Source of the DNA: a virus
Strand: one strand, 5' to 3'
Length of the DNA: 56,805 nucleotides
IMG/VR virus record: IMGVR_UViG_3300044615_000557
Location: 1-56,805 of that record
Position 1 is the stretch's first letter, and every line of letters starts with the position of its first letter. Below the pieces are notes generated by a model. That model made no database searches. It saw only the letters and a program-made list of their open reading frames with translations, and was not told the DNA's origin. Shown one piece after another: positions 9,320 through 40,030 of this stretch. The position numbers were made by a program, and so were the translations under genes.

Positions 9320-9392
9320 ATCCCCGTAACTCAGAGGATAGAGTAGCGGTTTTCTAAACCGCCTGTCGCAGGTTCGAGTCCTGCCGGGGATG
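9320..9392 (+). tRNA. tRNA-Arg (UCU)
   Basis: Full cloverleaf: acceptor ATCCCCG/CGGGGAT, anticodon stem GCGGT/ACCGC around loop TTTCTAA (anticodon UCU), T arm with GGTTCGAGTCC. Discriminator G; no encoded CCA. It reads AGA/AGG. Confidence 0.92.
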
Positions 9393-9394
9393 CT

Positions 9395-9465
9395 GCCCCT
9401 ATAGTATAACGGCATTACACTTGATTTGTAATCATGAGAACTCAGTTCGATTCTGAGTAGGGGCT
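9395..9465 (+). tRNA. tRNA-Thr (UGU)
   Basis: Acceptor GCCCCTA/TAGGGGC, anticodon loop TTTGTAA (UGU) on a stem with one T-T mismatch, T arm CTCAG-TTCGATT-CTGAG. Discriminator T. It lies between tRNA-Arg and tRNA-Lys with a 2-3 nt gap on each side. Confidence 0.88.
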
Positions 9466-9468
9466 TTC

Positions 9469-9722
9469 GCTCTCGTAACTCAGTTGGTAGAGTAGCGGAC
9501 TTTCAATGGAACTCTTGCACAGGAATGTGCAAGCGAATCTCCCCAAAATCGGCGAACCCTTCGCTGGCAACGCCGAGCCAAGCCCGTAAGGGAAGGTGTA
9601 GAGACTTGACGAGGAGCATCCAGACCGGATGAAGGCAAAGTCCAGACCACGAACCGAAAGGGCGGCGAAAGCCGAAGTGGTAGGTAATCCGTAAGTCGTG
9701 GGTTCAAGTCCCACCGAGAGCA
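9469..9722 (+). tRNA. tRNA-Lys (UUU) interrupted by a group I intron
   Basis: Exon 1 is 9469-9503 and exon 2 is 9685-9722. Joined, they form a normal cloverleaf: acceptor GCTCTCG/CGAGAGC, D arm, anticodon stem GCGGA/TCCGT with loop CTTTTAA (anticodon UUU), T arm GTGGG-TTCAAGT-CCCAC, discriminator A, no CCA. The intron falls between anticodon positions 35 and 36. The anticodon was set by placing the 5' site after a U that can pair U-G with the intron guide, and the 3' site after a terminal intron G. Confidence 0.85.
9504..9684 (+). ncRNA. Group I self-splicing intron (IC3-like), 181 nt
   Basis: The core closely follows the cyanobacterial tRNA-Leu intron pattern. P1: exon GACTTT with guide GGAACTC, U-G at the splice site and one C-C mismatch. 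P2: CTTGCAC/GTGCAAG. P4: TCGGCG/CGCCGA, then GAGCCAAGCC and GGGAAGGTG (P6). P7: GACTT/AAGTC, with TAGAGACTTGACGAGGAGC as the conserved P7/P3 block. P8: CATCC/GGATG. P9: CCAC/GTGG with an internal GGC-GAAA-GCC-type hairpin. The last base is G. It carries no open reading frame, so it should be splicing-competent but not itself mobile. Confidence 0.85.
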
Positions 9723-9726
9723 TTGC

Positions 9727-9799
9727 GGTCCCATCGTCTAGCAGGCTAGGACACCTCCCTTTCACGGAGACAACAGGGGTTCAAATCCCCTTGGGATCA
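9727..9799 (+). tRNA. tRNA-Glu (UUC)
   Basis: Acceptor GGTCCCA/TGGGATC, anticodon arm CTCC-CTTTCAC-GGAG (anticodon UUC), T arm with GGGGTTCAAATCCCC, discriminator A. It lies 4 nt after the tRNA-Lys gene. Confidence 0.9.
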
Positions 9800-9800
9800 C

Positions 9801-9806
9801 TAAATA
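9801..9806 (+). promoter_or_regulatory. Late promoter, CTAAATA, giving a leaderless transcript
   Basis: Begins immediately after tRNA-Glu. The core ends 5 nt before the ATG at 9812. Confidence 0.7.
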
Positions 9807-9811
9807 AGAGC

Positions 9812-10363
9812 ATGAGATCGTTTGTACAACACCTGACCGAGACAAGTCACGGCAACCCGCCCAAGGGCATCATCTATTGCGACATGGATGGGGTGCTGGT
9901 TGACATCATCGGTGGCATCTGCAAGATGGACAAGATGACTCGTTGCACCGAGAAGTCTTTTGACCGGTACTTGGAGAACAACAAGGCCAAGTTTGACCGC
10001 GAGCATCCGAACCTCTTCCAGAAGTTGCCGTGGATGAAGGATGGCAAGCGTCTCTGGAAGTACATCAGCCAGTTCGGACCCCACATCCTCTCTGCCCACA
10101 CCAGCACATGGCAACCGACTTCAAAGGAAGACAAGATGGTGTGGATCAAGAAGAACCTGAACCCCTTGCCAACCCGCACGCACATTCTCCTGCGGGCACA
10201 GAAGCAGAACTACGCGGTACAGAAGGACGGCACTCCTAACATCCTGATTGATGATCTACCACAGAACATCAGTGAATGGAAGGCAAAGGGCGGAATCGGC
10301 ATCATTCATCGCAATGCCGAGACGACCATCGGAAGGCTGAAGCAACTCGGTTATATCATGTGA
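9812..10363 (+). CDS. HAD-family 5'-nucleotidase-like protein with candidate capsid-targeting N-terminus
   Basis: 183 residues. MRSFVQHLTE-Thr resembles a packaged-protein N-terminus with an L-T-E site. The HAD nucleophile motif follows (IIYCDMDGVLVD, Asp24 and Asp26). A Ser/Thr motif (ILSAHTST) and a C-terminal acidic motif (ILIDDLPQNISEW) complete a phosphatase fold of the deoxyribonucleotidase type, which removes phosphate from (d)NMPs. An in-frame extension upstream runs through tRNA-Glu and is not used. The ATG lies at the predicted late mRNA start, so translation is probably leaderless. A nucleotide-salvage role is inferred. Confidence 0.75.
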   Translation: MRSFVQHLTETSHGNPPKGIIYCDMDGVLVDIIGGICKMDKMTRCTEKSFDRYLENNKAKFDREHPNLFQKLPWMKDGKRLWKYISQFGPHILSAHTSTWQPTSKEDKMVWIKKNLNPLPTRTHILLRAQKQNYAVQKDGTPNILIDDLPQNISEWKAKGGIGIIHRNAETTIGRLKQLGYIM

Positions 10364-10364
10364 A

Positions 10365-10445
10365 GCCGTAGTGGTGGAATGGCATACACGGGGGTTTCAA
10401 AAACCCCTGCCGCAAGGCATGCAGGTTCGAGTCCTGTCTACGGTA
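10365..10445 (+). tRNA. tRNA-Leu (CAA), class II
   Basis: Acceptor GCCGTAG/CTACGGT, anticodon stem GGGGT/ACCCC with loop TTCAAAA (CAA), long variable arm TGCCGCAAGGCA, T arm CAGGTTCGAGTCCTG, discriminator A. It starts 2 nt after the upstream stop. Confidence 0.9.
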
Positions 10446-10462
10446 CTTGTGAAAGGCAAAGA

Positions 10463-10609
10463 ATGAACGAAGGACATCACGGAGCAGGCAAGGGGGACAC
10501 CTATCGCAAGGTGGACTTGGAGCAATATGGCAAGAACTACGATGCCATCTTCCACAAGAAACCCAAGAGGAAGCCTGTCAGGACGAAGAAGAAAGCGAGT
10601 AAACCATGA
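10463..10609 (+). CDS. Basic 48-residue protein
   Basis: MNEGHHGAGKGDTYRKVDLE, ending in a Lys/Arg-rich tail (KPKRKPVRTKKKASKP). The start at 10463 was chosen because the longer frame runs through tRNA-Leu; AAAGG lies 6 nt upstream. The stop overlaps the next ATG. The tail suggests nucleic-acid binding. No family recognised. Confidence 0.6.
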   Translation: MNEGHHGAGKGDTYRKVDLEQYGKNYDAIFHKKPKRKPVRTKKKASKP

Positions 10610-10848
10610 GTCACCCCTACACGCCCGGACGGGCATACGAACTAGGATACGGAGACCGCATGCAAGGCAAGTGCATGGACGGAAAGGTCATGCAGTCGGA
10701 AGACAAGGACATCTTCAAGGAAGAGTATGTGCGTGGGTGGAACGATGCCAACGCACGGGTCTTTGATGAGTCCCGAAAGAAGATGGAAAGCAAGCCGATG
10801 CCCGACGGCTGGTCCAACGGGTCCGGCAAGTTCACCCTCAAGGGCTAA
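10606..10848 (+). CDS. Unknown 80-residue protein
   Basis: MSHPYTPGRAYELGYGDRMQ, then a pattern resembling small phage proteins with an EEYVRGWNDA helix. It is translationally coupled to the upstream gene through an ATGA overlap, and its stop TAA is the first half of a late promoter. No signal peptide or catalytic motif. Function unknown. Confidence 0.65.
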   Translation: MSHPYTPGRAYELGYGDRMQGKCMDGKVMQSEDKDIFKEEYVRGWNDANARVFDESRKKMESKPMPDGWSNGSGKFTLKG

Positions 10849-10851
10849 ATA
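10846..10851 (+). promoter_or_regulatory. Late promoter, CTAAATA
   Basis: Overlaps the upstream TAA stop. The ATG at 10851 begins at its last base, so it cannot be transcribed from it; the ATG at 10869 is the usable start. Confidence 0.7.
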
Positions 10852-10868
10852 TGAATCCGGAGGCACAC

Positions 10869-11234
10869 ATGACACTGATCACCACCCTACTCACGCTTCA
10901 ATCGCAACTTCGCATCTTCCACTGGCAGACGAAGTCATACGCAGAGCATCAGGCTCTCGGCGGTCTTTACGGCGACCTTGACCCTCTCGTTGACGAGTTC
11001 GTGGAGGTGTTCTCCGGTCGTTACGGGGTTCCTGTCGCCAAGAACCAGTACTCCCTGACCTTCGGCAACTACAAGGACAATGCCGCATGCGTGGAGTTCA
11101 TTGACAAGACCATCCAGTACATGATGAAAGATGTTCCGGCGATGCTGAAGCCGGAGGACACCGACCTCCTCAACCTTCGGGACGAGATAGTCGGGGCATT
11201 GAACAAGACGAAGTACCTGCTCCGTCTCAAGTGA
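10869..11234 (+). CDS. Conserved phage protein, DUF5856-like
   Basis: 121 residues. LQSQLRIFHWQTKSYAEHQA, followed by FVEVFSGRYG, matches a helical protein common in marine T4-like phages (DUF5856 type, from memory) with a ferritin/Dps-like look: His/Glu positions on four helices (His18, His26, Glu44, Glu47). Metal binding is not shown. Start 10869 was chosen over 10851 because GGAGG lies 7 nt upstream and 10851 is inside the promoter core. The tmRNA gene follows after 4 nt. Confidence 0.7.
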   Translation: MTLITTLLTLQSQLRIFHWQTKSYAEHQALGGLYGDLDPLVDEFVEVFSGRYGVPVAKNQYSLTFGNYKDNAACVEFIDKTIQYMMKDVPAMLKPEDTDLLNLRDEIVGALNKTKYLLRLK

Positions 11235-11238
11235 ACAA

Positions 11239-11580
11239 GGGGTCGTATAGGTATCGAATGCATGCAAACTGATGAGTGATGCGCTACGGGGAACCATGTT
11301 CGCCCCGCAACAAGACATGGAAACTAGAACTGCCAACAAGCAGCCCTACCGTCTCGCTCTCGCAGCCTGACCTCCGACTACCTGACTCCTCTAGGGTAGA
11401 AAGAGCAAACAGAGGATTGGACCTCGCGGAACGGAACGCCAACGAGGTCCGAGAACCAAAGACTCCGAACATGACCCGCTCAGTTGCCGTCGGCGGCGGG
11501 TCTTGACAAGCGACGGATATTAGCGTAGAATGCACCACAGTAAACATGACATCACGGGGGTTCGATTCCCCCCGACTCCA
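11239..11580 (+). ncRNA. ssrA: Transfer-messenger RNA (tmRNA), one-piece
   Basis: 342 nt. The ends form an alanine-tRNA-like acceptor, GGGGTCG with CGACTCC, including the G3-U70 wobble that alanyl-tRNA synthetase requires, and discriminator A. The T arm is GGGGG-TTCGATT-CCCCC. The 5' part reads GGTATCGAATGCATGC, as in tmRNA D-loop regions. The tag frame at 11332-11370 encodes Ala-Asn-Lys-Gln-Pro-Tyr-Arg-Leu-Ala-Leu-Ala-Ala then TGA, ending in the LALAA/ALAA-type degradation signal. Several GC-paired segments after the tag fit pseudoknots. With host SmpB it would rescue stalled ribosomes. CCA is not encoded. Placement right after a late gene suggests late expression. Confidence 0.9.
11503..11531 (+). 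promoter_or_regulatory. Sigma70-like promoter inside the tmRNA gene
   Basis: TTGACA (11503-11508), 17-bp spacer, TAGAAT (11526-11531). It would start a transcript near 11538 for the phosphoesterase gene at 11597, carrying the tmRNA T arm in its leader. Confidence 0.5.
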
Positions 11581-11596
11581 TTAGAAAGATCTCGCC

Positions 11597-12217
11597 ATGA
11601 ACACCCCCAAGGGAACCAAGCCACCTCCGAACAAGGATGTATTCGTGGTGTCCGACACTCACTTCGGACATGCGAATATCTGCAAGTTCAATTCCAAGGG
11701 GGTGAAACTCCGTCCATGGGACCGGATAGAGGATCATGACGAGGCTCTGGTCGCCAACTGGAACGCCGTGGTCAAGCCCACCGACAAGGTGTATCACCTC
11801 GGCGATGTCGCCATCGCGAAGAAGTCTCTTGACATCCTCTCGCGGCTGAACGGCGACAAGATCCTCATCCGTGGGAACCATGACATCTTTGACCTGAAGG
11901 ACTACGCCAAGCACTTCCGCGACATCCGTGCGTTCCATGTGCTGAACGGGTGCGTCTTCTCGCACGCGCCCATCCATGCATCATGTCTGGAGAAGTTCGG
12001 ATGTAATGTCCACGGGCACACGCACGCGAAGCATATCCAACGGGTCGCCGATATCGGTGGTCTGGAGAACGACCCGTCGTACCTGAATGTCTGCGTGGAG
12101 CACACCGGCTTCGCTCCCATCCCTCTTGACGAGGTGTTCGCTCGGGTGCTGAAGCAGGGAGGTAGGGTGGGGTTCCTTGACAAGCGACGGGAAGAGGTGT
12201 ATGATTGGGCTGGTTGA
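11597..12217 (+). CDS. Calcineurin-like metallophosphoesterase
   Basis: 206 residues. All metal-binding motifs are present: VVSDTHFGHAN (Asp20, His22, His25), GDVA (~74), GNHD (~93), SHAPIH (~120) and GHTH (~139). This is the two-metal phosphodiesterase/phosphatase fold; T4-like phages and bacteria use such enzymes on nucleic acids or nucleotides, and the substrate cannot be read from sequence. It lies 16 nt after the tmRNA and may be driven by the promoter inside it. Two tRNA genes follow within 10 nt. Confidence 0.85.
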   Translation: MNTPKGTKPPPNKDVFVVSDTHFGHANICKFNSKGVKLRPWDRIEDHDEALVANWNAVVKPTDKVYHLGDVAIAKKSLDILSRLNGDKILIRGNHDIFDLKDYAKHFRDIRAFHVLNGCVFSHAPIHASCLEKFGCNVHGHTHAKHIQRVADIGGLENDPSYLNVCVEHTGFAPIPLDEVFARVLKQGGRVGFLDKRREEVYDWAG

Positions 12218-12223
12218 AACCAT

Positions 12224-12295
12224 GCGGGTGTAACTCAGCGGTAGAGTTCTTGCCTTCCAAGCAAGGTGTCGAGGGTTCGAATCCCTTCGCCCGCT
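12224..12295 (+). tRNA. tRNA-Gly (UCC)
   Basis: Acceptor GCGGGTG/CGCCCGC, anticodon arm CTTGC-CTTCCAA-GCAAG (UCC), T arm GAGGGTTCGAATCCCTT, discriminator T. No encoded CCA. Confidence 0.92.
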
Positions 12296-12300
12296 TTCGG

Positions 12301-12372
12301 TGGTCTGTAGCACAACGGTAGTGCGTCGTCCTGTTAAGACGGTGGTTACAGGTTCAAATCCTGTCAGACCAG
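12301..12372 (+). tRNA. tRNA-Asn (GUU)
   Basis: Acceptor TGGTCTG/CAGACCA, anticodon loop CTGTTAA (GUU) on a TCGTC/GACGG stem, T arm CAGGTTCAAATCCTG, discriminator G. Confidence 0.92.
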
Positions 12373-39939: not shown

Positions 39940-40030
39940 GCACGCCTAGCATCTGGGTATGCAAACCGACTTATAAACGGTCTTAGCGGCAGATTACCGC
40001 GAGAGGTGGGTTCGATTCCCACGGCGTGTA
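39940..40030 (+). tRNA. Class II-like tRNA with ambiguous anticodon (UAU if read normally)
   Basis: Acceptor GCACGCC/GGCGTGT, D arm GCAT-CTGGGT-ATGC, long variable arm GCGG-CAGATTA-CCGC, T arm GTGGG-TTCGATT-CCCAC, discriminator A. The anticodon stem is ACCGA/ACGGT with an A-A mismatch next to the loop, or 4 bp closing a 9-nt loop. The loop CTTATAA would give UAU (Ile), yet long variable arms belong to Leu, Ser and Tyr tRNAs. Decoding is therefore uncertain. Confidence 0.65.

Follow-up and report, generated by a model that had tools for sequence, protein, structure and literature searches.

The window, as we call the whole stretch of DNA analyzed here, is a 56,805-base IMG/VR virus record. Matches to phage families were obtained for its DNA polymerase, clamp loader, UvsX, and DnaB-like helicase, and T4-like cyanophages have the polymerases most similar to its own (about 50% identity). 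ARAGORN finds a tRNA cluster and a tmRNA at positions 9320-12372, with tRNAs for Arg(UCU), Thr(UGU), Glu(UUC), Leu(CAA), Gly(UCC), and Asn(GUU). The phage tmRNA (11239-11580) carries the tag ANKQPYRLALAA; according to ARAGORN, the tmRNAs of relatives have different tags and include permuted forms in contigs L064 and L239. Far from the cluster, at 39940-40030, ARAGORN calls a 91-nt tRNA-Ile(UAU) with a long variable region, which falls below the cut-off of the Rfam tRNA model. The protein encoded at 13581-14186 matches the S-adenosylmethionine lyase family PF23780 (E 4.6e-12) and may have an anti-restriction function.

The tRNA-Lys(UUU) gene and its boundaries

Positions 9469-9722 hold a tRNA-Lys(UUU) gene that is split between tRNA positions 35 and 36 by a 181-nt insert (9504-9684; Table 1), exactly as the initial annotation had described. 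The acceptor and anticodon stems pair between the two halves (9469-9503 and 9685-9722), and the D and T arms are intact. When the exons are joined, they form a 73-nt tRNA with all stems paired and the loop CUUUUAA, which ARAGORN reads as tRNA-Lys(ttt), in agreement with the host that had been proposed. The U35.G splice pair (9503, 9509), the terminal G9684, and the core motifs that had been quoted are all present. ARAGORN run without introns called no gene at 9469-9722, and the tRNA-SeC that it called when introns were allowed was rejected as an artefact, as the tool misplaces the splice site. Outside the anticodon, the similarity of the exons could not tell isotypes apart.

Table 1. Features of the split tRNA-Lys(UUU) gene, its intron, and the neighbouring tRNA genes, in positions of the window
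Feature	Position	Strand	Evidence
tRNA-Arg(UCU), first of the cluster	9320-9393	+	ARAGORN, Rfam
tRNA-Thr(UGU), intact	9395-9465	+	ARAGORN, Rfam
tRNA-Lys(UUU) 5' exon, tRNA positions 1-35, last base U35	9469-9503	+	Acceptor, D-arm, and anticodon-stem pairing with the 3' exon; joined-exon reading
P1: exon ACUUU (9499-9503) with guide GAACU (9509-9513)	9499-9513	+	Guide tracks the anticodon across relatives
Group I intron, IC3 type, 181 nt	9504-9684	+	Independent covariance model, RF00028, covariation
P10 strand, partner U36 and A37 (9685-9686)	9507-9508	+	82% of cells paired, two-sided changes
P2 hairpin, 8 bp, GGAA loop	9514-9533	+	Two-sided changes in 8/8 pairs among relatives
P3, 9539-9544 with 9611-9616, around P4-P6	9539-9616	+	97% of cells paired; 5/5 pairs covary
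P4 (9549-9554 with 9571-9576), P5 (9558-9559 with 9566-9567)	9549-9576	+	99.5% and 100% of cells paired
P6 (9577-9579 with 9595-9597), P6a (9583-9585 with 9590-9592)	9577-9597	+	100% and 90% of cells paired
P7, guanosine-binding helix, 9603-9607 with 9638-9642	9603-9642	+	100% of cells paired
P8, 9617-9621 with 9627-9631	9617-9631	+	Two-sided changes in 4/5 pairs
P9 (9646-9650 with 9677-9681), P9a (CC/GG), P9b (GAAA loop)	9646-9681	+	P9 96%, P9b 99% of cells paired
Terminal guanosine (omega-G), within the conserved end GTGGTANG	9684	+	3' register common to relatives with one possible parse
tRNA-Lys(UUU) 3' exon, tRNA positions 36-73	9685-9722	+	Pairing with the 5' exon; joined-exon reading
tRNA-Glu(UUC), next cluster gene after the split tRNA	9727-9800	+	ARAGORN, Rfam

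The same bases can be parsed one position earlier, with the 5' splice site after U34 and the intron ending at the first G of a GG. That parse also has a U before the insert and a G at its end, and it would give a tRNA-Thr(UGU), which is how ARAGORN reads it. Relatives in which only one parse is possible nevertheless end in GTGGTANG, placing the end of the intron at the second G, and insertion at site 34 would call for the guide GAG, whereas the window's GGAAC fits U33-U34-U35. Such a product would also duplicate the intact tRNA-Thr(UGU) that lies just upstream. We consider splicing to tRNA-Thr highly improbable, and comparison with relatives establishes the boundaries as those of an intron within tRNA-Lys(UUU).

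A second contig, L024, contains an identical intron, with one change in the exons and about 2% divergence in the surrounding DNA. An assembly artefact is therefore an unlikely source of the split gene.

Covariance models and the structure of the ribozyme

The covariance-model search that had been suggested as a check gave a match to the Rfam group I model RF00028 at 9492-9666 (37.9 bits, E 2.2e-8, in a 321-base search). Because this score is below the curated cut-off of 50, a default Rfam scan misses the intron, and for the same reason we gathered relatives with DNA patterns of the intron core. Their host tRNAs were found by a script that required tRNA stems and an insert preceded by U and ending in G. 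An independent covariance model built from 29 of these relatives, leaving out the window and the near-identical contig, matched the window at 9535-9684 with 156.4 bits (E 1.1e-36 over 56.8 kb), and the next-best match in the window scored 10 bits.

We aligned 37 sequences, including the window, and examined the structure from P1 to P10. In the alignment, 91.2% of cells form standard pairs, versus 71.9% in shuffles, and two-sided changes number 417, versus 131 in shuffles; 35 of the 55 pairs show such changes. When the partners are slid, pairing drops to 28-44%. Covariation is seen at every pair in P2, P3, P5, and P9b, and P4, P6, and P7 are mostly invariant. The invariance of the core motifs is partly by construction, as the search patterns contained those motifs: in P7, four pairs are invariant, partly for that reason, and the last pair changes from UA to AU in six relatives. 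The covarying helices lie mostly outside the motifs that were searched. Because of the P3/P7 pseudoknot, simple minimum-energy folding (z -2.4) gave no information on the core.

Every pair in the window is intact except for a C32.C mismatch in P1, and the group I core of P3, P4, P6, P7, and P8, with its guanosine-binding P7, consists of intact, covarying pairs. The P2, P4, P8, and P9 that the initial annotation had listed around an IC3 core belong to this structure. The insert also shows the other features of the subgroup: an anticodon-loop tRNA host, small size, and a P2 hairpin and P9 with GNRA loops. This comparison confirms 9504-9684 as a group I intron of IC3 type within a phage tRNA-Lys(UUU) gene, the subgroup name resting on the motifs and the host; the intron also aligns with bacterial tRNA introns over its whole length.

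The layout of IC3 introns is known from those of Anabaena tRNA-Leu UAA, Azoarcus tRNA-Ile CAU, and Agrobacterium tRNA-Arg CCU. The intron in the window shares with these three the core motifs, the P1-P10 layout, the GAAA loop of P9, insertion in the anticodon loop, the U.G splice pair, and the terminal G. It differs from them in its phage genome, its tRNA-Lys(UUU) host, its insertion at site 35/36, its length of only 181 nt, and its very short P8 loop.

The mismatch in P1, together with the sub-threshold Rfam score, could be taken to mean that the intron has decayed and that the tRNA is a pseudogene. The mismatch, however, recurs in contigs L010 and L013, all other helices are intact around a canonical core, and the intron is unchanged in the contig that has diverged around it. 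We regard decay as very unlikely.

The guide sequence provides a further link between the intron and its host tRNA. Introns at site 35 carry the guide GCAG in tRNA-Asn(GUU) (all nine distinct introns), GGAG in tRNA-Lys(CUU) (all ten), and GAAG or GGAG in tRNA-Lys(UUU) (15 of 18). Among site-34 introns GAG is nearly universal, being the guide of every one in Lys, Thr, and Arg and of almost every one in Leu. These counts indicate that the tRNA isotype and the base opposite anticodon position 34 vary together. In the window, the guide GGAAC gives U35.G, U34-A, U33-A, the C.C mismatch at 32, and A31-U.

Relatives in phages and bacteria

The initial annotation had regarded a tRNA-Lys host in a virus as unusual, but the relatives do not support the view that a Lys host is exceptional. 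Introns in tRNA-Lys(UUU) or tRNA-Lys(CUU) occur in many viral contigs and in several bacterial groups, including Acetobacter, Gluconobacter, Sphingomonas, Magnetospirillum, and Methylococcales, so a Lys host is not new for this class of intron. The bacterial introns (those of the first four genera are among L157-L185) share the window's isotype and site 35/36 but sit on other branches. Matches to the model occur in 41 of 289 genomes from the class to which Acetobacter belongs; where the host could be identified, it was usually Leu(UAA).

In a tree of 108 introns, for which the bootstrap is incompletely settled and the support values are rough, the window's intron and eight other viral introns form a clade with support of 99/93. 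Four members are in Lys(UUU) at site 35 (the window, L010, L012, and L013), three in Lys(UUU) at site 34 (L064, L137, and L034, which the script labels Asn and which reads as Lys at 34), and two in Leu(UAA) at site 34 (L049 and L112). A tree joining the window to the bacterial tRNA-Lys introns was rejected (p-AU 0.0005), as was one uniting every viral tRNA-Lys(UUU) intron in one clade (p-AU 0.003); a single clade of all site-35 introns was compatible with the tree test (p 0.22). Of two strict patterns written for the window's clade, one retrieved a single contig and the other none. A P8 motif typical of the clade is present in 21 viral contigs, of which 20 parse as tRNA-Lys or tRNA-Leu and one is truncated at the edge of its locus. 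Comparison thus establishes a lineage present in about 20 viral contigs, where the predicted host is either tRNA-Lys(UUU), interrupted at site 34 or 35, or tRNA-Leu(UAA), interrupted at site 34.

One gathering pattern demanded GTAATC in the 3' exon, which biases its isotype counts; with a less biased pattern, the viral hosts are mostly Leu(UAA). Host DNA may be present in some of the IMG/VR contigs, with L046 a candidate. In L187, a more distant phage relative with a neighbouring protein that is 68% identical, we found no tRNA-Lys in the stretch examined and no intron in the record; because the tRNA-Lys is absent from that stretch, L187 provides no empty site.

Introns of this class are also found in cultured phages. 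The Gordonia phage Daredevil (L151) resembles the window in carrying an intron of the same class in a phage tRNA-Lys(UUU) (104.9 bits), but its intron is 238 nt long, lies at site 34 beside an integrase gene, is distant in sequence, and is unannotated. The position of this tRNA-Lys gene (L151 1289-1599) by the integrase gene may reflect a link to an attachment site. The jumbo Agrobacterium phage Atu_ph07 (L242), also cultured, and the huge-phage genomes LR756501 (735 kb; L149) and LR756511 (595 kb; L150) likewise have an intron of this class in a tRNA, but in Leu(UAA) at site 34. Over 51 nt at its 3' end, the L150 intron matches that of the window at 92% identity. The L150 intron itself (847-1560) is 700 nt long and contains an HNH-like reading frame, which we named by eye from its sequence. 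In a Microcoleus phage record (L243) such an intron is in tRNA-Arg(CCU), and the deposited tRNA feature is 286 nt long.

Related introns occur in the protein genes of other phages, for example those for ribonucleotide reductase and DnaB helicase. In the Pelagibacter phage HTVC120P, an intron of the same class (L147 1462-1654; 141 bits) lies between two capsid ORFs; judged from its position, the capsid gene annotated as split may be a single gene joined by splicing. When group I introns sit in protein genes of phages, a homing endonuclease often accompanies them (PMC3984707), whereas the intron in the window lies in a tRNA gene. We found no endonuclease gene inside it, as its 181 nt are filled by the ribozyme, and ten proteins encoded near the tRNA cluster gave no match to a homing-endonuclease family.

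Predicted splicing and the role of the intron

The locus very probably contains a complete self-splicing IC3 intron, a compact passenger that restores a normal tRNA-Lys. We infer its activity, its passenger status, and its route of transfer from sequence. In the transcript, the guide would pair with the anticodon-loop end of the 5' exon to form P1, and an external guanosine held in P7 would cleave after U35. The released U35 would then attack after the terminal G at 9684, and the exons would join to give a normal 73-nt tRNA-Lys with the anticodon UUU, which is the most likely outcome. Having no endonuclease of its own, the intron would have moved as a passenger with tRNA genes among phages, and its lineage would have moved between tRNA-Leu(UAA) and tRNA-Lys(UUU). 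Because positions 33-36 of this tRNA-Lys are a run of four U residues, an intron at site 34 or at site 35 yields the same mature product, and because the 5' exon ends in CUU in both Leu(UAA) and Lys(UUU), a site-34 intron can serve either without a change of guide. The U run and the common CUU could be the route by which the lineage switched host and register.

The phage uses AAG for 85% of its lysine codons and AAA for 15%, and both are readable by UUU with wobble. The proposal that lysine decoding depends on splicing would hold for the phage's own copy of the tRNA but not beyond it, as the host presumably has its own tRNA-Lys. For the suggestion that the intron senses GTP or the state of infection, we found no evidence; all group I introns use guanosine, and the sequence contains no signs of regulated splicing and no switch-like element.

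The intron might instead be kept for regulated or protective splicing, delaying the tRNA, sensing the state of the cell, or hiding the anticodon loop from anticodon nucleases. Phage tRNA-Lys(UUU), tRNA-Thr(UGU), and tRNA-Asn(GUU) counter the PARIS nuclease AriB, which cuts between UAAUC and A41, and a change to C41 in the E. coli tRNA lowers cleavage by AriB (PMC12409363). All three of these tRNAs are present in the window (Thr at 9395-9465, Lys at 9469-9722, and Asn at 12301-12372), and its Lys copy has C41. Once spliced, however, the mature tRNA would show the same loop, and the commonest viral host under the less biased pattern, Leu(UAA), is not an AriB target. We therefore think it very unlikely that the intron is retained for such a function; the AriB-countering set and C41 could be part of the reason that the phage retains this tRNA, though they do not account for the intron. 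There is similarly little likelihood that an anticodon loop left unformed until splicing times the supply of tRNA, or protects it from tRNA-cutting defences, in which case phage tRNA introns would be a distinct functional layer and not passengers. Self-splicing of a passenger intron to a normal tRNA-Lys remains our preferred reading.

According to a 2014 review, every phage intron known at that time lay in a protein gene, although phages have many tRNA genes (PMC3984707), and we found no description of group I introns in phage tRNAs in the open-access papers searched, recent ones on phage introns included. The tRNA introns known in giant eukaryotic viruses (PMC11946776) are a separate matter. 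The ribozyme class is itself known, and the combination of host virus and isotype is under-described rather than unique.

The interest of the finding lies chiefly in a whole class of phage tRNA genes that has been overlooked. Phage tRNA genes of several isotypes, including those of cultured phages, also host introns, and annotation tools miss or miscall the split genes; the authors of tRNAscan-SE 2.0 state that it was not designed for such genes (PMC8450103). Counts of phage tRNAs, and arguments from absent tRNAs, may thus be biased against such isotypes as Lys(UUU) and Leu(UAA). With one family, two tRNA isotypes, and two neighbouring sites, the lineage described here offers a compact test case for the spread of tRNA introns.
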